Source: Cinnamomum chago (Eukaryota > Streptophyta > Magnoliopsida > Laurales > Lauraceae). Taken from it: a DNA stretch of 64,000 bases. The translations under genes were made by a program, and so were the position numbers. A model generated the notes under the pieces. That model saw only the letters and a program-made list of their open reading frames with translations, made no database searches and had not been told where the DNA came from. Shown here one piece after another: positions 1,452 to 55,136 of this stretch (position 1 is the first letter of the stretch; each line of letters starts with the position of its first letter). The stretch lies in the NCBI GenBank assembly GCA_038049695.1, contig CP142461.1, positions 31,503,001-31,567,000 of the forward strand. The letters are read 5' to 3'.

Positions 1452-4400
1452 TGTCACACCCCCGAACCAGGGCCCTGTAGCGGCCCGACCTCGGGGAGCA
1501 GGAATGGGGATTAAGTCAGAATTATATTTCTCCCAGGATCCACGTGTGTGAGGATGACAAATTCCAACACACTCTGAATATTTTGCGGAAGCTTTCGTGG
1601 CGTTGCGACCCGGAGTCCGTGGCCATCGAATTCCGTGACGCACTCAACCGCTAGCATATAACTATCATATCAAGAACCATATCAGACTGGAACAAACCAT
1701 CACAATAAAAATACAGAGCTGACAGTAATAGGATAATCATTCCCACATATGTTCAAGTTACAAATATCAATGTGTATCAATTAAGATCCCGAGAAAAAGG
1801 CTAATAAAAGCAATACAAATAACAAGCTAAATAAACACTACCCCACATGTGACGTAGCTCCGATGTCAAGTTTACTGTCTACATGACATAGCCGACACTA
1901 AAACCTGCAACTCATGGCTCTACAGCTGTGGTACACTCAGATCGGAGCGAAGAAGTCTGAACCTGAGTACCAAAATAGTAGGTTAGACACGGTGTTCTGG
2001 CGGGTGGGTGAAAAGATACTAAACGTACTGAAGAGTAAAATATGTGATAAATCATTTTATTTGATCAAAAGCTGCATATAATTAAAATGTGTGGAAAATC
2101 ATGGATATCTGACAAATCCTGTATTCATGTAAAACGGGTGTAAAACATGGATATTTGACAAGACATGTATTCATTTAAAGCATGTGTAAAACATGGAGAT
2201 CTGACAAAACAAGTTTTCATTTAAAACATTTGTAAAACATGGATATTTGACAAATCAGGTATTTCTCACATTGCAAACCCAATCCATATGCAGACCTTGC
2301 AAATCACTCTTCTTTAGGGGAGCGACAATCGTAAGGATAGATGGCAACCACATAAAGCTAAATCCTCCATCACTAATGTGATGAGAGCACACTAAGGGCG
2401 TTGGTCTTAGACACGCGAAGTGACGAGAACTAACTAAATATATACATATATATACACACACACACACACTATTTTGGTGGAGAAGTCAAAGCTTCTTGTA
2501 GCTCTTTGGGTGTCCATCAACCCATCTTCTAGAGGATATTCCCTTCAACAAATAGTGTATCACTGGAAAGAGCTGACTTTCTCTATCACAGAGGCCTTAG
2601 TTTGTTGTTTTTGTGTTGTCTCGCTTGTGATTTCTGCTTTCTATCTTTTGCTGTCAGTACTTATCTCTTGTACTGTTTGCTATTTTTCAATGAAAGTAAT
2701 CATTCAAAAAAAATAAATATATATATACACACATATAGCTAGACAAAACCACGGCCGCGGACCGGGTTGCAGAACAGAATAGAATCCAGACTGCAGTTGG
2801 CAAAGCAGATAGGGGGACCCCAAGTCGGTGGATCAAGCCGACAAGGTTGTCCAAGCTTAGTGGTGTCGACACATAAATAAAAAACGAGCGAACACACAAA
2901 ATACGGTGAGGAACTACTCAACAGGCCAAGTCAAAGCACACACACTCATGTAAAGAGTAGTCCTCCCAATATGCATATAAAAACTCATAGAGTTACCCGA
3001 GTTGACAAAACTGATTGTTTTTTTGATAAACGAACGAAATACCAAAATTGTTTATTTTTAGTCAAGATGAGCTAAATAATCCAAAGCGGATCATTTTAAT
3101 CCAAAACGGGCAAAAGTAACTAAATCTGGATGTTTTAGCCAAAATGAGTAAAATAAGACATGAATGGATTTCCATATAATTCCGGACTATGCATTGAGGG
3201 TTCAAGATTTAAATCAATGTGAATAAGGCACTCGTACGTCGAGTTTTGTTTTTGGCTTGGCACTCGTGAAGATCAAGGACATTCCGAGCCCCTTATACAC
3301 ATTGGCAAGACAAAAATCCTCAATAAATTTCCGTGATGGGGTTTCTTTCTCAACCAAAACTCCATACATCACCTCCTAGGTCTCACCGTTGCATTGGGGC
3401 TCTAAACAGACCTCTCCCAAGCATTAAAACATCATTTTGCAAGTTTCCAAAGCTAACCCGGGCATGAGGAACAGTTGGCTAGAGCGGACCGGAGCCAACC
3501 ACTCTCTTGGAGGGTTCGCTTGAGCGAACTCTGTCAAAAGCTGGTTTCTAGTGCATTTCGAGCTCATTTCTTCCTCCTCTTGCAAGCCCCTTTGAACCAC
3601 TGATTTGTCTCAAAATTAAGGGTCTCTTTGCCTTCCCAAAACCACCCTTAATCCACCACCAATCATTCCACAACATACACCAAGAATCCATCACATTTAT
3701 CACCATACCTCCCATCATATATGAAATCCATAGGTAACACATAAATCAAAATTTAACCAAAACAAAATGTATACATTTCCAAGAGATTAAACAAATGAGA
3801 AAGACTCATTAATATGCACATTTTCGAAATCAATAGAAACATAGTGAAAAGCATAATTAGAAGCAAGTATTAAATCACTAAGAACAAGTAATAAAATTCC
3901 CTATTTTCTCATAAAACATGCTAACACTTAAAAACATCCATTCATCCACTTGCCTTGGCCTCCAAGATAGGTAAAGAAGCTCCTAAGCACACTCCCAAGC
4001 CAAAGATCTCCAAGTTACACAAAAAGCCCCAAAATACAACCCATTTGAACCCTAAATAGCCAAAACAAAGAACAAGAAGGAGAGAGCTCCCAATAATGGA
4101 GATGGGGACTCTTTAGGGCTAGGAGAACACAAAGCTAACAGATGAGAATGATAGCTTACATGGAAGTTTTTCAAATGGCAAGGGCTTGCTCAAAATGAAC
4201 CTTGGAATGGGTGGTTTCTTCTACAAATGGTACCAATGGAAAGCCTCCAAGATGGGGAAGAAGATGATGGAGCCCATTCTCCATTTGGCAAGAGTTTGAG
4301 ATGGATTGAAGAGGAAGAAGCAAGAAGAAGAAGGGAAGAAAACCCTCGAGTGGTTGGTGCAGCCCCTCCACAATGTTTTTGAGCAAGATGAAGGGGAAAG

Positions 4401-4921
4401 TGAGGGTGAGTTCTCTTTATATAGAGAATGAAGGTGGGTCCCATAACTTAACAAACTTGTCGGGCTAAAAACATGGTTTTCCAGGCCTCGGATGAGTTCG
4501 ACGAAGAAGAGAAAGTTGTTCGTAAAAAAATCTAGTTTCCAAAAAGTATATATTTCGCGGGTTTTGGAGACATTGAAATTTGTGTCCAGATTTTGTGTAA
4601 AAAGACTGATTTTGCCCCAAGGGCTGGAAAAACTGATTGTCGGAGCTTCGAATGGGTACGGAGTGAACACGAAAGTTGTAGGGAATGACGAGATTAGTCA
4701 AACGAAGCCGAAAGGGGAATTTTTTTGGGAATCACAAAGAACCTCCCTATGCTGACCACGCAAAACAAATGGGACCATACGGGCACTAATTAGTTTCTCA
4801 AAGCTAATGAAAAACCATTATAGCTCACAAACTCAACCAAACAAACACTAATCCCACTTAGAAAACTAATGTACAAATAAATCAACACGAATCCCGGAAA
4901 TTAGGGGGTCAGGGTCTCACA
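1452..4921 (-). mobile_element. Solo LTR-like unit A, 3.5 kb, with 5-bp target duplication
   Basis: Read on the minus strand it runs from TGTGAGACCC to GGGGGTGTGACA and is flanked by CTTTC (plus strand 1447-1451 and 4922-4926), an exact 5-bp duplication. It is inserted in a LINE remnant. A TATA-like TATATAAAG on the minus strand lies at about 4414-4424. An acceptor-like CAG sits at 1963-1965, 511 bp from the 3' end. A decayed CGCTTGAGCG palindrome is near 3516-3531. It belongs with units B, C and D. It is a fossil without coding capacity; a LINE tail (2471-2717) is inserted in it. Confidence 0.75.
2471..2717 (+). mobile_element. LINE 3'-end fragment inserted in solo LTR A
   Basis: A 5'-truncated insertion ends in an A-rich tail (about 2705-2717). 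It is flanked by similar AT/AC-rich sequence on both sides (about 2436-2470 and 2713-2740), which may be a target duplication blurred by microsatellite sequence. The frame SLLGVLQ-type coding ends and a T-rich 3' UTR fit plant L1-type LINE tails. Confidence 0.45.
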
Positions 4922-17814: not shown

Positions 17815-17817
<3 letters not shown>

Positions 17818-18371
17818 AAAGGGTCCTGTAAGGACCGTCCTTACAACTTACTGTGCGGACTGCCTAGTGGGGCCCACCGTGAGACCCCACTGGTCATGGG
17901 ACAGAGGGGGACCAAAAGATTCAAGTGGGGCCAACCTACATATCAAATTTGAAGTCAATCTAATACCTCTAACCCTTTCATCTATGGTCCAAAAGTTTAA
18001 CAACTTTATATCAAACAAGAATCCGCACAGTTCAAAATGCCCACTGGGGCCCACGTTATGACCCATCCAAATTGACCATACATTCACAACCTCCTTATAG
18101 ACACCGAATTCCATGAATTTGCATGGATTGGGATGAACTAGACCGTTAGATTGAGGGTCAATTTTTCTTGTTTGATATAAAGTTGTTAAACTTTTGGACC
18201 ATAGATGAAAGGGTTAGAGGTATTAGATTGACTTCAAATTTGATATGTAGGTTGGCCCCACTTGAATCTTTTGGTCCCCCTCTGTCCCATGACCAGTGGG
18301 GTCTCACGGTGGGCCCCACTAGGCAGTCCGCACAGTAAGTTGTAAGGACGGTCCTTACAGGACCCTTTCCC
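17815..18371. mobile_element. Mutator-like MITE with 207-bp terminal inverted repeats
   Basis: Arms 17815-18021 and 18165-18371 appear identical as inverted copies; both begin GGGAAAGGGTCCTGTAAGG. A 143-bp spacer separates them. It sits in a TA microsatellite, so the flanking 9 bp ATATATATA on both sides (17806-17814, 18372-18380) fit a 9-bp Mutator target duplication but cannot prove it. No transposase; non-autonomous. Open frames on both strands are shadows of the arms. Confidence 0.85.
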
Positions 18372-25954: not shown

Positions 25955-27215
25955 AGCAAGTGGGTCTCCGGTGGGTCTCTCTTTGGATTCACGGATTGGA
26001 TGGGTGATCGGGTGGCCCACCTACGTCTCGGTATCAACGCAAGAAACTGAATGGCCCAAACAATGACCGAAACTTAAAAAAACAAATTCTCGCTTCTTAA
26101 CTACTTCCTAAAACATGTACTCTCCCTTTCTCTGATCAGACGTTCGATGGTGGGCCAAACAAAGCCCACCTTGCACGGGTCCACCACCTACTGGGTCGCT
26201 CATGGGTCCTCTTTCGGATCCACGGATCAGATGGGTTATCGAGTGACCCACCTGGGTCCCGGTATCAACGCAAGAAATTGAATGGCCCAAACAATGACTG
26301 AAACTTAAAAAGGAAAAATCAAAAACAAATTTCCAATTCCTAACTGTTTCCTAAAACACGTCCCTCTCTGATCAGACGCTGGATGTTGGCCCCACCTCGC
26401 ACGGGTCCACCACCTAATGGGTCGCCGGTGCATCCTCTTTCGGATCCACGGATTGGATGGGTCGTCCGGTGGCCCACTTGGGTCCTGGTATCAACGCAAG
26501 AAACTGAATGGCCCAAACAATGATTGAAACTTAAAAGAAAAATCTTACTTCTTAACTGCTTCCTAAAATACGTCATCTCACTCTCTCTGATTAGACGCTG
26601 AATGGTGGGCCAAATAGGGCCCACCTAGCACGAGTCCACCACCTAATGGGTCTCTGGTGGGTCCTCCATTGGATCTACGGATCGGATGGGTCATCCGGTG
26701 GCCCACCTGGGTCCCGGTATCAACGCAATAAAATCAAGCGGAACAGCTGTATGGCCCAAACAATGACTAAAACTTTTAAAAAAAAATTCCCACGTCTCAA
26801 TTGCTTCCTAAAATAAGTCCTTTCCCTCTCTTTGATCATATGCTGGATGGTGGATAAAGATGGCCTAACTCACACGTGTCCACCACATTATGGGTCTCTA
26901 TTGGGTCCTCCTTCGGATCTACGGGATCGGATGGGTCATCCGGTGGCTCACCTGCGTCCCAATATTAACGCAAGCAACTGAATGGACCAAACAATGACTG
27001 AAACTTAAAAAAAAAAATTTCACGCTTCTTAACTGCTTCCTAAAACACGTACTCTCCCTCTCTCTGATCTGACGCTGGATAATGGGCCAAATAGGGTTCA
27101 CCTCGCACGGGTCCACCACCTACCGGGTCGCCCATGGGTCTTCCTTCGGATCCACGGATCAGATGGGTCATCGAGTGGCCCACCTAGGTCCCGGTATCAA
27201 CACAAGAAATTCAAT
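25955..27215. repeat. About 5.5 tandem copies of a 230-bp unit
   Basis: The anchor ATGGCCCAAACAATGA recurs at about 26051, 26281, 26511, 26751 and 26981 (one copy has ATGGACC). Each unit also holds CGGGTCCACCACCTA, a GGATCCACGGATC-like palindrome and GGTATCAACGCAAGAAA. Copies differ by scattered substitutions and small length changes (227-243 bp), so they are not recent. Confidence 0.9.
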
Positions 27216-27457
27216 GTGGAACGTGCATAGCACGGGGTGTTGTTAGTTAGATGCTATCAAAATGCACACCAATCTTATTGAATCATACGCAAGGAGATGG
27301 ACACCGGTTATGAATGGATTATATAACTTTGTTAATTGATGGTTGATGGTTTCTAATAGCCTTTTCTAATATTTTTGTCTTTTAGGATGCTCTAAAAACC
27401 TCCGCTGAGCACGAGCACTAGTGCTCACAACTTGGTTTCTAATACCAAGTGGGGCCC

Positions 27458-29664
27458 TGTTAGGCTCCGTCCCGAGTTAATCCCAATGAACTCTAATTAA
27501 TGGAACTTAAGACTAATTAAGCCGGTTTAAATGCCTTAATGGTGACATAGCCTAATGTAGGCTTAATGAAAGGTTTGACAAGATTAATAACTGAATTGAA
27601 TTGAAATGGAGCCTAAACAAGCAAACGAAGGACTTATGTGTAAATACGGATTTATATGTATTTTGTCGGATTCGGAAACTCTTGATACCCGCATGTGTAT
27701 CTCGACGAGCACGACGAATTTCATAAAAGACTTGAAGGGATTCGACGAGAAATGAATCAAATGGACCTTGATTTGACTTGAAATGGAATTCATGAGAATT
27801 ATTGGGCTTAAATGTAAAATAGCCTTTTATATAAGTTGAGATGGAACCCTAGGCACAGCTGTTTCTTCTTCTTCTTGCAATTTCTTCCATTCTTTCTTCT
27901 TCCTTTCATTCTTCTTCATCTAAGGGACTTGGGGTGATTGAAGTGAAGAGGAACCACATCTTCTTCCTTTGCTCATCATTTTCCTCTTCTTCATCTTCTT
28001 GGAGTATTCTTGGAAGTCAAGCTTCACTTTGAGGAAATTCCTACTCAAGCCAAGCTAAACAAGAGTTTTATAGCAAGCAAAGCTTCAATTGAGGCAAGTT
28101 ATACATGTACTTATGCTTGTTGAGGTAGTTTGTGGATTTTGATAAAGAGAAATGATGATTAGGGTACATTATGAGTTTTAAAACCCTAATTAGATTATGT
28201 ATTATTGTTAGATTGATTGGAAATGGATGGTGTGTGTGGAGGGGACAGGAGGTTCCATTATGCTTGCAGGTTGTGGAGGAATAAGGGAGAAGTGAGTGAG
28301 AAAGGAGAGAGAAGGAATCAGATTTTCGGAGTTGAGTTCTGGACAGTTCGCTCGAGCGAACAGGGGGTCGCTCGAGCGACCAAGGCTCTGTTTCAGAGAA
28401 AACTCGTCCTGGACCGATCGCTCGAGCGAACATTAAAGTGCGGTCGAGCGACCATCATTCTGTGAAGTGTCCGCTCGAGCGAACTTTACTCGCTCGAGCG
28501 AACCTATACAAAAACCCACATTAATAGTAAAGTGGAAATTTTCAGTGAGTTTTGGAATTTTTCAAGAACTAAGATCGCTTATGTGGTTGTCAATACCTTC
28601 ATAAGTGTTAGCGGAGGTTATCTAATGCACACTCTACTTAAAGTAATATCATCCATAGTAATCCTTGCATTGATAGCCAAAGTTACACGTAATGGTTGTT
28701 TAGAAGATTGGTTTAGTCTTAGAATGAGAGTGTTATGAATGTGTTAAAATGTCTGGCACTACCTAGTGGTTTCTTAAACTCATTATTGAATTGCACTGAA
28801 TGAATTGATAAATGAAATGACTATTCCTACTGCAGTAGATGAGATTGGGGTGTTCCGGAGCCCGTGGTGACACCAGTGATCTCTGATCAAGACGCTGGGA
28901 GATCCCACCTTATTGGACCGAAATGTCATTGACTGAAAAGTCATACACTGAAAAGCCATTAATAAAGGTTAAACCTAATGAATAAATGAATATGAAATGC
29001 TTCCTTTTAGGAAGAACTGAATGGAGTTGAAACCAATGCTAGTGTAGTTGCCATATTATTGTCATAGTTATTTCTGCTTATTGTGGATTGTCTAGCACTG
29101 TTAAACAATGAATTGATAGGAATTATGAACATGCTATAAATGTATGTATACCTTGTTGAACCATCGTGTTCACGGTATTACTGATGATATTACAGGCTCA
29201 GTTGCCCGTGCCGGTCCCTCAGCGACCGTGTCGCCAGCGGAGGAGGCCCATTCGCTACCTCCAGGAGGTTTAGCTGAATGGACATGATTGGAGTGCGTAT
29301 ACACGGGACTCTTTTTGGGGAACTTTTTAGAAATATTGTATATATTCATTTTGGTATTGTAGGTACTGTATATGATGTCCCCTGCCTTGTAATATAAATA
29401 TGCAGTGGTTGATAGTGGAAATGAAACGATGTAAAGTGAAATATGTAGTTTAAAAGTAAATGTTCTGAATCATTTTGTTAAATATTGTCAATGTATATGT
29501 ATTTGTATATGTTTTGCAATTGTACATTGACAGGTACGTATGCAAGATCCCTTATAGACTTCGTTGTAATTTCGGTTAAACGGGGTTTACGGGAGTAAGT
29601 ATGTTTAAGATCGCGACCCAGGGGTTAACCCTAATGACTCTGATCTCGAGTCCGGGTCGTGACA
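27458..29664 (+). mobile_element. Solo LTR-like unit B, 2.2 kb, with 5-bp target duplication
   Basis: Runs from TGTTAGGCTCCGTCCCGAG to CCGGGTCGTGACA and is flanked by GGCCC on both sides (27453-27457, 29665-29669). A TATA-like TTTATATAAG lies at about 27824-27833, so the later part would be transcribed. A palindrome array lies at 28346-28503, and an acceptor-like TTACAG ends at 29195, 469 bp from the end. No coding capacity; a fossil. Same structural class as A, C and D. Confidence 0.8.
28346..28503. repeat. Array of six CGCTCGAGCG-type palindromes in solo LTR B
   Basis: Two perfect 16-bp palindromes, GTTCGCTCGAGCGAAC (28346-28361) and GGTCGCTCGAGCGACC (28366-28381), are followed by ATCGCTCGAGCGAA (28417-28430), GGTCGAGCGACC (28442-28453), CCGCTCGAGCGAA (28471-28483) and CTCGCTCGAGCGAA (28489-28502). 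Spacing is irregular. The CpG-rich motifs are well preserved against an AT-rich background. Confidence 0.9.
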
Positions 29665-46900: not shown

Positions 46901-49411
46901 CATACAACAAATCCCATATAAATAGGATAATGTTGAGATTGTGACAATAATGAGATTATGATTTAAGCAACTGAACACATCTGTAACAGTCTGACTTTGA
47001 AATTAAAGCAATTGTAATGTCACTCAACTAAGAGGGAAATAAGTATATAAAATAAATGCTAATGATAAAACTAGGCCTCCTCATCACAACTACAAATTAA
47101 CATAGATTTTGCACATCGTAACATGGTACAAGGATAACTATAAAAGAAACACATGGGTGCAAACAAGGACAGATACTAATATTTAAGATCACTCACCTCA
47201 ACTGAGAGGGGAAAATGTATTTGCAATCAAATTGAAGTCAATTAGTGTGCATGCATGTTAATCTTTTTTCATTTATTATACTTCACCATTGTAGGGGCTT
47301 CACATGAGTTAGCAAATTGGGGGTTTTGCTTGTAATTGAGTTAAGAGTAGTATTAGAGTTGAAAAGCACCAAAAGAAGGCAAGTATGAGCATTTTTGAAT
47401 CATGCATGTTGGTATAACCTTGATGAGATGCTAAGTATTCAATTCTATATGTTCAATTCAACCTTTACATTAATTTAGATTGATAATGGAAATGGGTTCT
47501 TCTTATAATGGGTTAATGTAGAATGAAATTGGTAATGAATGTATGGAATGAAATGTGGGGAGCATGTCGGCTCATTTTGTGCAGAAAATGGCAACCAAAA
47601 AGCCTTGGAAAGGAGAGGGGAGAGTAGAAATGAATTTTCAAATTTTGGATTTCGAATTCTATACTAGACGCTCGAGCGCTCCAGAGTACCAGCTTGAGTG
47701 GAAGTGCTTCTGGAACCTGATGTTTGAAGGATTCCTGCATAGGCTTGAGCGGCTAAGGGATTCGTTCGAGCAGAAGTGCCCTTGGATGAGGTGCGCTTGA
47801 GCGGGCCTGACGTCTGACAGGGGCTCTTTTCTGACCATTAAAGGAGTTTGATACTTACCTTAAATTGTTTATAAACCTTTATGATCAACCCCGAGGATGA
47901 TTATGACGAACACACTAAACCATTAGGGTTCTTGTAAATGGAAAGACCATATAGGGCCCTAGAAATGGCACCTTGATCGCATAACATGGCCCAATGGTAA
48001 TTATGATTACATGAGAGGTCGTGAGGCTGAGATTATTTCATGTGCCTTATCCAACTCATCTAGAACTTCACCATGGGCGTTGATTTAGAGGACTTCGATG
48101 TACCTTACACACACAACGTGGAACCAATGAAAGGTAGCTCGTGCATCGAATCACCTAAAACTATATCGTAATGGATAGATAGAGACAACAAATAAATAAA
48201 TTAGTAAATCACATTGATTCTATTAATTGGATTGCATTTGCATATTGATATTGACTTTATTATTAACCTCAATTTGTAAATAACTTTCTCCAACTTGTTA
48301 TTGAAATTGTCCTACATATGTCACTGTATATCGATTGAAATTCGAACAGAGTAAGTATGTGATTGGAATGGATTTGAATTGAAATGAATAAAATGGAATT
48401 GAATTGATTCAAAATGAGTTTAATTGAAGTATAAAGTCTTACTCAAGTTCTATTATTTCATTCGAATGGTTCAGCACTACTTAGCTTTGACTTTATAATA
48501 CTCGACGGGGTTAAGTATGGTTTAGTTAATTGAGGCTACTGTGGTACATCGCCTGGAGCATTGGAAGTCCAGAACCGGATAAGAAGGAAAACCTTTGGCC
48601 GGGTCACTGATGACATCCAAATACGAATTGCTCTTTAATTGGGAGGATGAGCCCAGGTAGTTGCCAACTAGAAAAGTAAGTTTCTCGATTTGTGATTCAA
48701 AAAGCATTATTAATTCATAATGTACAAATTGCCTAGTGAACTATTGTTTAATCACTCGTCTATAATTCGAGTTTGATGCAGCATGTATTAATCATAATTG
48801 CTTATACTTTGCTGAATCGTCGTATTCACGGTGCTACTCTTGGTGTCACAGATTCGGTTAAAGAAATTGCCGTTACGGGATTCCAGGAGATTGAGGAGGA
48901 GAACTAATACCTTCTCCGGGTTTAGAGCAATGGATTGCAGTGGACATCTTCTTGTCCTTGGCTATTAGAGAGCGTATAAGAGCTTAACTTGGGTTTGGGA
49001 ATTAGCTATTGCATCTTGTTATCTTGCACTTAGTTTACAATTACGCATATGATTAGTCATGATTTTCATCGGTCTTAGGAACTTGTTTTTAATAAGGTAA
49101 GCATCATCCTTGCATTACCTTGGTACCACTCATGTAGGGGTTTGAATTCTTAATTGGTATTAAATAGAAATCTTCGTGTATATTTATTGAAACCGTCATA
49201 GAATGTTCAAGCTTTGATATTGATGATGTATATGTTTCTGCAATCAAATGCACAGTGCCAGGTGTCTGTGGGCAAGTCTTAAACGCGCGAAGTATGATTT
49301 TCTCCTTCGTGGATTCGGACTTGGTCCGTAACATGTGCAAATTCACAGGAGTACGCATGTCACACTTCGAGGATCACACGAATCAAGGAAATTTCGGGCT
49401 GAGAAGTGACA
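43918..49411 (+). mobile_element. Solo LTR-like unit C, with foreign sequence inside
   Basis: Starts TGTAACACCCCGACCTCC and ends GAGAAGTGACA. Sequence before it is CCTAG (43913-43917); the same CCTAG occurs at 49719-49723, just after the MITE that follows the LTR end. Decayed CGCTCGAGCG-type palindromes lie at 47666-47795, and an acceptor-like TCACAG ends at 48851, 560 bp from the end. The part between about 44665 and 47250 has no counterpart in units B and D and is probably a nested insertion. A fossil without coding capacity. Confidence 0.55.
44665..47250. other. Probable nested insertion of unknown type in unit C
   Basis: On the minus strand a TATA box (CTATAAATAAAG, about 45850-45862) is followed by a leader and an ATG (45704) whose fourth codon is cut by a GGAG/GTACTC donor (10-nt coding exon 45695-45704). 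No downstream exon could be recognised, so no gene is called. The rest shows no supported feature. Confidence 0.3.
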
Positions 49412-51734: not shown

Positions 51735-51739
51735 TTATA

Positions 51740-54700
51740 TGTAAGGTCCGCGACCTTACTGGGTCAGTTGGGCCCAATAGCAGGCCCGTTGACCCATTTA
51801 TTTTTATTATTATTATAATTATTTGTATTTTAGAGATTTAAGTGGGTTTAGGCCTTGAGTGAGTTTCTTTTAGTGTTAGAATAGTGTTGGCGAAGTTTCG
51901 TTCGATTTCGAGTTCGTTTGATCCTAGAAGGGGGTAGGTTACAAATTAGGAAAAATTGAGTGTTTTTCCGAAAAAATTATATCACCATGATTTTGGGTTT
52001 GTTGGAAAGGTCTTGTCGCACTGATCATTTTTGTCTTTTGCCTCGTCGTGATCCGACGATCATAAACCCTTCAAATAGTCCATTCTTTCACCGGACCCAC
52101 TTAAAGGGCAATTCGGTCTTTTCCTCCCTCTCTTCTTCTTAAGCAGGGATTAGCCCTAATCTCATTCCCACTTCTGCAATGAGAGTTACAGCAACCCATC
52201 TTTTTCCCCTTCTCTTCTCAAGCCCAAATCTCCCTCCGGAAGAGATCATCTCCATGATCCGGACCGCACATCTTCTTCCTTTCGATCTCCTCTCTCCATT
52301 GATACTAGTGGTAAGCCTTTTCCCATCATCAACTTTTCCATTCGTTTTCTCTTTTGTTTAGAATAGGTTGGATCATGATATTTTTCCTTTCTTTCTTCTT
52401 CTCGGTGTTCTAGATTACTTTTGAGCGGGGGTAGATTGTGATCTTTGTGGTAGAAAGCTTCTCCTCAAGCTTTTCCAATTTCTAATCTTCTTGGTTGAGG
52501 CAAGTAGACATGCAATTATATTTAATCATGTCTGTGTTGTCTTCTTTTGATTGCAATGATACTCTTGTTAGATTACCCAAATTCCAAGCTTATTATTGGT
52601 ATTGCATTGGGATTGACATGTTAGGTTAGATTTGTGGTTTGGATTGGATAAATTGTAGCTTTGGAAGTTTTTAATTTGATAGAATGGATGGAAAGAATGA
52701 TTGAAATGATTGGGGAGCATGGAAACTCGTTTTCTGCAGGAAAAAGGAAGAAGAAAAACCCATTTTCGGGTTCAGCTACAGTGCCGATCGATCGGGCCTT
52801 CAGTCCGATCGATCGGACTGAAATTGCTCTCAGTTAACTGGGACAAATCTCAGATCGATCGATCGGACCTATTGTCCGATCGATCAGAGGGCAATTATTG
52901 TGAATGGTGACAACTTTGAAAAAAAAAAAGAAGGGGAACTTAAGACCTTGACTGATGGACGTTCTGGCCATGGCATAAGTGCATAGGAATGAAAAAAAAA
53001 AAAGAATAAATAAAATAAAACAAAAGAACGTTGGCTGGCCTGACTACCTGACATGCATGTGGGTAATATTGGATCATCCATCCGATGAGTCGAACTCGTG
53101 TTGGTTCGTCGCGCTTTTATATATATATATATATAAAAAGGGTTAAACTTCTATGGGCCATAACTTCTGAACCATGCGTCGGAATTTCCCGAGCCATATA
53201 CCGTTGAAAAGCTCTTTGAGCGTAGAATCCAATGATACATGTCTCGTGATGATTGGGGATCAAGTAGGGAAGTAGTTAATGAGATTAATTATTATACCAC
53301 TTTCTTGTTAATAACGAGATTGTTAGCCTAGGTTTGGGCCTTAGACATTGGAAACCATGAAACCACTCTCACGTGACCATTAATGGGGTTTTGGAAATCG
53401 TAGCACGTGGCTTGGTGTGCTTCGATGGGTTGTCTAGGTATTCGTGTATTGTTTATGGTTAACCGAATGCGTATGGAATTGAATCATTCGATGCTCAACA
53501 TTATTGTACACCAAGGAAATTCTTTATAAGCATTGATTATTCGAATTCCCCACGCACTCCGTTAAAACACATATGGTACATGGATGACAACACTTGCCTA
53601 GGATTGGATTGTAATCTCTCCTTGATTTGTTAATCGTATCCGTTGATTTTGTATCCTTGTACACTCTTTTGGCATAAAACACCTAACTAATTATGAAACA
53701 TAATCCCTTGTAGAATTAGGACTTAGACCTGACTTGGAGTGTACCTTAGGACCCCGTGTTGTGTAATTGATGAACATGACTGGCTAGACTGAAGGGATTA
53801 TCACGTGATTGGATTTGTCTTGTATTGACTTGAATGAGATAATCCCTATGAACGTGTCTTGTATATTGAGCTAGCCAGACTTGCTTGTCTTGGTCTATTC
53901 TCGTGTCAACACCACATTATTATTATTATTATTATTATTATTTGCATATCATGGCCAGCTGCAGTTTGGGGGTTTATTGATGGGCCGGTTACTCGGACAT
54001 CGGGGTGGGCAGTCGGCTTTGAACGGCGTCCATGGCGTTGAATAGTTGGGAGCGGGCTAGGACCGTGCTACTATTCCTAGGACCGGGAGCTGGGATCCCC
54101 CTGGAGCCGGACTTTGGTATCTGTAGTCTAGATAGGATTGTTACTGGTACCCCGTGAGGTGGCTAGGACATCCACGGAGTCTCCCTTTTGTGCATTGCAT
54201 TATATTGGCAGTGGTGATTGTTAGTATTGTTAGGATTTCTATTTATGATCCTGATGGTTATTTATTCATGCTTTATGCCTAGATTCGGTTCCTTGTATTC
54301 TCTTGATTATTATACCTGTCATTACTCTTATACTTGATGCATGTCATGATTATTTATATATTGCTTATCTATTGCTCAACATGTCGTTGACTCTATCCTT
54401 TGGTGTGCAGACTCATTAGGTGAGTACTACTACGAGGAGCAATCAGGTGAGGAGATCCCAGAGGATCTCCAACCGGTTGAGGAGGAACGAGAGTGGCGTG
54501 CAGATGACGTAGAGTAGCGTCATCATACCTGGCACGAGAGAGATTCATTGAGACCTCATTAGATTCTTTATTCTTTATTTATCTCTTGTTGAAACTTTTA
54601 TATCATTGACATCACTATTGTTTTAAATGGCATTGATTAGTGGGAAGGCCATTGTAATAAATTAACTTCATTGTTTAAAATTTATTTTATTCCTTGTTCA

Positions 54701-54919
54701 ACTTTAATATATATTGAGATTCATTATTCATTGTTGATATCCGAATATGCCTGGAATTATATGAGTTCCGCATATCCTTATTATATTTGAGGCTTGAAAT
54801 ATTATCTCCTCACAACGGACTTACGATCCTTGGGCCTAAAGGGCAAAATTTTTTAATTAGCCCTAAATTTCACTCCCCAGATCCGGTTTATTCTCTAATC
54901 GGGTTCGGGGGACGTGACA
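51740..54919 (+). mobile_element. Solo LTR-like unit D, 3.2 kb, with 5-bp target duplication
   Basis: Runs from TGTAAGGTCCGCGACC to GGGGGACGTGACA, flanked by TTATA on both sides (51735-51739, 54920-54924). A palindrome array lies at 52784-52890, an (ATT)n run at about 53917-53942, and an acceptor-like GTGCAG ends at 54410, 509 bp from the end. No coding capacity. Same class as A, B and C, though overall sequence similarity is low. Confidence 0.8.
52784..52890. repeat. Array of CCGATCGATCGG-type palindromes in solo LTR D
   Basis: CCGATCGATCGG (52784-52795), a perfect 24-bp palindrome centred between 52810 and 52811 (core CAGTCCGATCGATCGGACTG), the 10-bp CAGTTAACTG (52831-52840), then GATCGATCGATC (from about 52853) and TCCGATCGATCAGA (from about 52875). 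It takes the same place in unit D as the CTCGAG array does in unit B. Confidence 0.9.
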
Positions 54920-55136
54920 TTATATATACCAAGAGCCCAGCTGTACCAAATATCCTAAACCCTGCACTGTACGGGCTAGATATGTTTCATACCAAATTGA
55001 CCTATTAACTTATATATTTATTAACAAGCAAAACAATGAGACTATCCACTCAAATTTTCTAGTAATTCAATGAAGAGTCATTTGGTCCAAAAACAATATA
55101 CAATCTTGTTCTGCCACAATGATAAAAATGATAGCC

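Follow-up and report, generated by a model that had tools for sequence, protein, structure and literature searches.

The window, a stretch of 64,000 nucleotides from Cinnamomum chago (C11:31503001-31567000), was compared with the genome that contains it (1.06 Gb searched, 14 contigs) and carries four LTR-like units, which we refer to as A, B, C and D. Unit D (51740..54919, plus strand) is a solo LTR of a Ty3/gypsy element with TG..CA ends and identical 5-bp flanks (TSD TTATA at 51735-51739 and 54920-54924). Unit B (27458..29664, plus strand) is a second solo LTR, with TG..CA ends and the 5-bp TSD GGCCC, and a tandem array with a unit of about 230 nt lies just upstream of it (25961-27252). Unit A (1452..4921) is an LTR on the minus strand with TG..CA ends and a 5-bp TSD that reads CTTTC on the plus strand. 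In unit C an end is visible at 49411 and neither a start nor a TSD was found, so that the term solo LTR, used for D in an earlier sequence-only reading, stands for D and B and is unproven for C. A blastn comparison of D with A, B and C detected no similarity.

A longer copy of D contained Pfam pieces in the gypsy order RVP_2, RVT_1, RT_RNaseH, Integrase_H2C2 and rve; its frames were broken by stops, the pieces were searched apart, and the rve match fell below the curated cut-off. Only RVP_2 and RVT_1 were recovered from a copy of B. Three bases past the LTR end of the longer D copy lies TGGTATCAGAGC, a putative primer binding site that we take to be the complement of the initiator Met tRNA. 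Judged by these matches, the hosts are Ty3/gypsy elements, probably of the Tekay/Del chromovirus lineage. A Pfam search of three pieces of one locus (L121) found SH3_Tf2-1 and no Chromo domain, which leaves the lineage probable and not proven; the EEATWELKDQM-like end of another (L107), translated by eye, resembles CHD ends. The LTR lengths of the units fit the range of 1.1-4.8 kb given for Del LTRs in the accessible text of PMC4029996.

Arrays of palindromic words at a shared place

Unit D contains four words of the CCGATCGATCGG type (52784-52795, 52805-52816, 52855-52866 and 52876-52887, plus strand), of which the third and fourth each carry one mismatch to this word in the window's copy. 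As the sequence-only reading had proposed, they occupy the place homologous to that at which unit B has six CTCGAG-type words (28346..28503, plus strand; centres at 28353.5, 28373.5, 28423.5, 28445.5, 28476.5 and 28495.5), which surround TCGA as in GTTCGC-TCGA-GCGAAC, and they include the perfect 24-bp palindrome TTCAGTCCGATCGATCGGACTGAA that it had reported, at 52799..52822, which encloses the D word at 52805-52816. The decayed words that it placed in A and C were also found at the corresponding place: the C array spans 47666..47806 (plus strand; centres at 47673.5, 47695.5, 47746.5, 47767.5 and 47798.5), and the remnant in A spans 3474..3531 on the minus strand, with its best word, GTTCGCTTGAGCGAAC, at 3516-3531. 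Centre-to-centre spacings were 21-50-21 in D, 20-50-22-31-19 in B and 22-51-21-31 in C. Given the lack of blastn similarity, these matching spacings mean that one register recurs in otherwise unalignable units.

The words of D can be grouped into two doublets. The first (52779..52820, plus strand), made up of words 1 and 2 (52784-52795, 52805-52816) and enclosed by CAGT/ACTG flanks, is predicted to fold into a long hairpin with one bulged G, and its CAGT..ACTG flanks were retained in 32 of 40 copies. The second (52855..52887, plus strand; words at 52855-52866 and 52876-52887), delineated from the fold and the family alignment, is a 12-bp inverted repeat with a loop of 5 nt. Words in the superfamily of unit A also form doublets, with partners 19-23 nt apart; consecutive spacings there fell at 20-23 nt in 46 of 128 cases and at 29-33 nt in 62 of 128 (counts that still include a mixed locus, L027), and A-type arrays resemble tandem repeats with a period of about 52 bp.

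Palindromes of this kind were too frequent and too long to be ascribed to chance, an explanation that we rejected. The window holds 14 GC-rich (at least 50%) perfect palindromes of at least 12 bp, the longest of 24 bp, compared with a mean of 3.97, a maximum of 10 and a longest palindrome of 20 bp when the window was simulated 60 times under a first-order Markov model.

Placement relative to promoter-like and intron-like motifs

In unit B a TATA-box-like sequence, TTTTATATAA, lies at 27825..27834 (plus strand) and is conserved among copies; the array begins about 510 nt downstream of it, the start site itself being presumed. A clear TATA box was not seen in the D LTR. The donor-like motif AG/GCAAGT is common to A-D (in A at 3948-3953, minus strand), is conserved within the copies of A, B and D, and was present in 7 of 11 related stretches sampled by the 5' end of the B LTR, and a TGCAG acceptor-like motif lies upstream of the array in B, C and D. 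Together these motifs may delimit a GC-AG intron in the LTR leader. The putative intron of D (52500..52739, plus strand; donor AG/GCAAGT, acceptor TTTTCTGCAG) ends 44 nt before the array, and those of B (28094..28269, plus strand) and C (47379..47584, plus strand) end 76 and 81 nt before theirs. On the strength of these motifs we infer that the array would lie within the leader, in the exon that follows the putative intron. Further into the B LTR, the segment 28830-28960 was near-invariant among 30 copies, the window's included.

Replacement of the word among related LTRs

Searches with the D array gave 1071 first-look candidates, of which 40, the window's own included, were scored. Words 1-4 were perfect in 34, 29, 32 and 33 of these 40 copies and all four in 15, figures that are biased upward because the array itself served to retrieve the copies. 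One of the 40 had a gap within the array, and the sequence directly downstream of the array varied in length. The B array as query gave 603 candidates (40 scored, including the window's; 37 read) and the A stretch 121 (40 scored, yielding 47 matching places); one other copy of the C array was found in the genome.

A sample without this bias was drawn with the 5' end of the B LTR as query (1619 first-look candidates; 40 scored, including the window's; 31 stretches read). It comprises 30 LTRs after omission of L159, which is the same place as L148, and these are not all independent, as L145/L158 and L147/L153 may each be two ends of one element. Array words stood at the expected place in 25 of the 30, so that the shared position claimed by the sequence-only reading persists when families are compared; the other five had no array within the stretch read. 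Thirteen of the 25 arrays were B-type, nine D-type, two carried CCGGTCGACCGG and one had a CTAG core. The last (L133) has two CGGCTAGCCG words 21 nt apart. When this one B-like LTR was read (C3:48600600-48601200), its array was seen to combine repeats of the GCTAACCG/CGGTTAGC type with the two CTAG-core palindromes. By eye, D-type arrays occur in B-like LTRs whose middle is alignable.

The words thus differ between families while their symmetry is kept, which agrees with the sequence-only reading: B, D, CCGGTCGACCGG and CTAG words all occur among relatives of the B LTR, and GTTCGC-TCGA-GCGAAC of B and GTCCGA-TCGA-TCGGAC of D differ by two compensated pairs. We rejected one fixed word or fixed protein site because related LTRs carry replaced words. 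Within ten B-type arrays from the LTR-end sampling, differences from the majority affected 17 of 880 sites in words and 89 of 1345 in spacers, with deletions counted separately (48 and 13 bases, respectively). Family-specific words that are fixed in position and keep both pairing and spacing suggest a working RNA or DNA structure, not chance.

Covariation of doublets and of single words

The A superfamily makes a test of compensation possible, since its half-sites are mainly of two kinds (GTTCGC/GCGAAC and GTTGGC/GCCAAC). At the variable position, matches stood to mismatches as 36:5 when the left half of word 1 was compared with the right half of word 2 (the outer halves of a doublet), as 83:57 inside single words and as 13:18 between inner halves; L027 is still included in these counts. 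Outer pairs such as ACTGGC..GCCAGT (L114), ATTGGC..GCCAAT (L034, L110) and GTTCGC..GCGAAC (L033) each matched less well within their own words. In a count of 218 words, which takes in words far from arrays and several wrongly oriented loci, within-word position 4 showed 107 pairs against 88.4 expected (reached in 8 of 2000 shuffles) and the other five positions showed no excess.

For the other counts, the ratios above included, strands were set from the search table. Set A1 comprised 44 doublets, 43 of them distinct, and left out L035, L030 and L031 (overlapping or repeated places) and the mixed L027. In its outer helix 86.0% of cells were paired compared with 81.2% after shuffling, a share reached in 0 of 500 shuffles, and the covariation score was 0.176 compared with 0.108, above all 500; pairs with a change on both sides were not in excess (180 of 500 shuffles). 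Self-palindromes in the same set stayed near the shuffled values (paired cells 75.8 against 75.1, 78 of 500; score 48 of 500), and inner halves showed no excess (74.4 against 74.4, 312 of 500; score 238 of 500). In 14 elements, outer halves fitted their own partners in 151 cases compared with 143.7 expected from sister doublets (permutation p about 0.006); the same test on self-palindromes gave p 0.92. Strict symmetry of each word was rejected for the A superfamily; in 36 of the 43 distinct rows of A1, for example, one position of the second word of the doublet was asymmetric (columns 33-42).

Outer halves covary better than single words, so that the doublet is better supported as the unit than a word-by-word kissing palindrome. 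The compensation between half-sites expected by the sequence-only reading accordingly appears between families and in the outer halves of doublets; within single words of the A superfamily it is weak and limited to position 4. The number of independent compensations is small, since in a flank tree of the last doublet of 23 loci all A-U pairs fell in one clade. In a cross-family set (A3) of 17 representative doublets, both the score and the paired share exceeded all 500 shuffles for self-palindromes and doublet hairpins alike, so that this set does not distinguish the two, and pairs changed on both sides in the outer helix were again not in excess (183 of 500); the pair-counting tool itself cautions that relatedness among sequences can lift values above every shuffle where no structure exists. 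Changes creating G.U were not in excess over those creating A.C (12:11, 26:25 and 3:11; 7:9 in outer stems), and this asymmetry was discarded as a signature of RNA.

Predicted folding of the arrays

Array windows were the best-folding parts of the LTR in B (z -9.3) and D (z -11.3). Of the two decayed arrays, that of A was not the best-folding part of its LTR and that of C was weak. Minimum-energy structures contained doublet hairpins in D (both doublets), in B doublet 1, in one doublet of L114 and in L148; in B doublets 2-3, L024, L113 and L132 the words paired across doublets or with themselves. Arrays of near-identical palindromes permit many pairings, so that folding alone cannot choose among them, and RNAalifold predicted no consensus pairs on A1. 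The doublet covariation fits hairpins. Flanks outside the words that are able to pair were family-specific: CAGT/ACTG in D, GTGT/ACAC in L148 and, by eye, GGT/ACC in L132. A long-range stem between AATTGCTCT and AGAGGGCAATT in D was rejected, since the 40 copies differ in the sequence that follows the array. Strong folding was also predicted for the 5' end of LTR D (51740-51860; z -7.5), with inverted repeats GTAAGGTC/GACCTTAC and TGGGTCA/TGACCCA.

Possible functions of the arrays

The arrays combine position, spacing and family-wide presence with replacement of the word and, in one superfamily, covariation of outer halves. Our tentative preference is for an RNA structure that serves the replication cycle, through dimerization or packaging of genomic RNA or through pairing of the 5' and 3' repeats. 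Long Ty3/gypsy LTRs would carry a cis-acting array built of palindromic-word doublets, with about 21 nt between the two words of a doublet and 29-33 or about 50 nt from one doublet to the next. The array, which follows the putative 3' splice site and in B also the TATA-like box, would be transcribed as part of the leader, and its words could consequently pair into long stem-loops in the element RNA. Because such stems are self-complementary, copies of one family could also pair with each other, and the word could drift provided that its partner follows. We favour this account for the local compensation, the pairing flanks, the leader position and the precedent of yeast Ty3, whose genomic RNA requires a 5' palindrome in a short hairpin to dimerize in vitro, according to the available text of PMC11381356. 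Ty3 has a single palindrome of 6 nt there; the arrays described here have words of 12-24 nt, a presumed location in the RNA and predicted folds. Counting against the RNA account are the mixed minimum-energy folds, the lack of a G.U excess and of an RNAalifold consensus on A1, the outer-helix pairs changed on both sides that stay within the shuffled range, the small number of independent compensations, the unremarkable folding of the A and C arrays and the five of 30 LTRs that showed no array in the stretch read. The preference of the sequence-only reading for pairing over a fixed protein site is partly supported in that a fixed word was rejected and doublets covary, and is weakened in that kissing palindromes of single words are less supported than doublets and that neither the G.U counts nor RNAalifold favoured RNA.

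A more specific version, which we consider unlikely, is that the words form a family-specific recognition code by which genomic RNAs dimerize and are co-packaged only with their own kind. If so, replacement of the word, among TCGA kinds and then by CTAG, would mark the point at which new families arise and cease to pair with related ones.

A serious competitor, and one we hold to be quite possible, is an array of DNA control sites, in which a dimeric host or element protein binds each palindrome and the whole acts as a downstream enhancer or an anti-silencing CpG cluster; the sites would lie on one helix face and changes in the word would follow changes in the protein. The spacings come close to 2, 3 and 5 helical turns, with the clusters at 20-23 and 29-33 nt noted above, and RNA hairpins need no such phasing. 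CpGs are dense in the B array, many 60-base stretches elsewhere in that LTR contain none, and the palindromic repeats of Sireviruses are described as CpG islands beside the promoter in the portions of PMC2829016 available. VANC proteins likewise act on non-coding regions of VANDAL elements, as far as the accessible text on them goes, and these regions resemble the arrays in having short words whose sequence varies by family. A single shared protein, however, would favour one half-site everywhere, whereas compensation here is local, own outer halves matching better than those of neighbouring doublets, and the pairing flanks outside the words vary by family. The motif arrays bound by VANC belong to VANDALs, which are DNA transposons that encode an anti-silencing protein.

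It is unlikely that the host mainly processes the hairpin stretch to small RNAs while a different cis role maintains it, as has been argued for the LTRs of maize Sireviruses. Long predicted stems would suit DCL-like processing, and according to the accessible text of PMC10760457 hairpins in the LTRs of maize Copia elements are targets of small RNAs and CHH methylation; for maize Ty3/RLG elements that text describes no obvious peak, and processing alone leaves the conserved spacing and compensation unexplained. Least probable, and in our view very unlikely, is that palindromic tandem repeats arise as by-products of slippage or template switching during reverse transcription and spread between families without function: the arrays do look modular, with D-type arrays in B-like LTRs and the A-type unit of about 52 bp, but words are better conserved than spacers despite their CpG richness, spacing outlasts spacer divergence and outer halves are compensated.

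Relation to known LTR palindromes

The closest described counterparts are the RM boxes of Sireviruses, which, in the accessible text of PMC2829016, PMC10760457 and PMC5311732, are also short palindrome clusters in LTRs with a family-specific word, dense in CpG and able to form hairpins; the RM of Tnd-1, ACAATCGATTGT, even shares the TCGA core of the words described here. Sireviruses, however, are Ty1/copia elements, whereas the present arrays lie in Ty3/gypsy hosts, as judged by the domain order of the D copy. The same text places RM clusters on the upstream side of the TATA box and gives them, except in Tnd-1, a CGG-CCG core; here the B array is downstream of the TATA-like box and the core is TCGA, once CTAG. 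A paired doublet register like the present one goes without mention for RM clusters in the accessible portions of those sources. What is new relative to the Sirevirus clusters is the Ty3/gypsy host, the place in B downstream of a promoter-like box, the doublet unit and the replacement of the word. The Sirevirus palindrome story is thereby extended to Ty3/gypsy elements, a group for which, in the available text of PMC10760457, no obvious peak of hairpins emerged from a maize-wide scan.

CpG islands of Del (Tekay) elements, probably of the same lineage, resemble the arrays in that they occupy the 5' part of the LTR as a CpG-rich stretch of variable character (PMC4029996). The main text of that paper, as available, contains "palindrom" and "hairpin" 0 times, and its ten-genome survey reports no CpG island in eudicot Del elements. 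The literature searched, in which coverage extended to few subscription papers, held no report of similar palindrome arrays in Tekay/Del. Printed occurrences of the word strings were set aside as well; among the matches listed they stood in papers that are biomedical by title, and we took them for oligonucleotide sequences. Little is known of RNA dimerization, packaging and regulation in plant LTR elements (a 2025 review of host factors, PMC12786077, has the stems "dimer", "hairpin" and "palindrom" 0 times in its accessible text), and a positioned, covarying array offers a defined piece to test. The array is carried by a lineage that is abundant in plants, and the turnover of its words shows pairing evolving inside a kept framework.

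Elsewhere in the window, a perfect inverted repeat of 207 nt with a spacer of 143 nt lies at 17815-18371. The segment 57600-58100, translated by eye, is the likely 5' end of a host gene, which we presume to encode a ubiquitin ligase of the UPL6/7-type HECT class.
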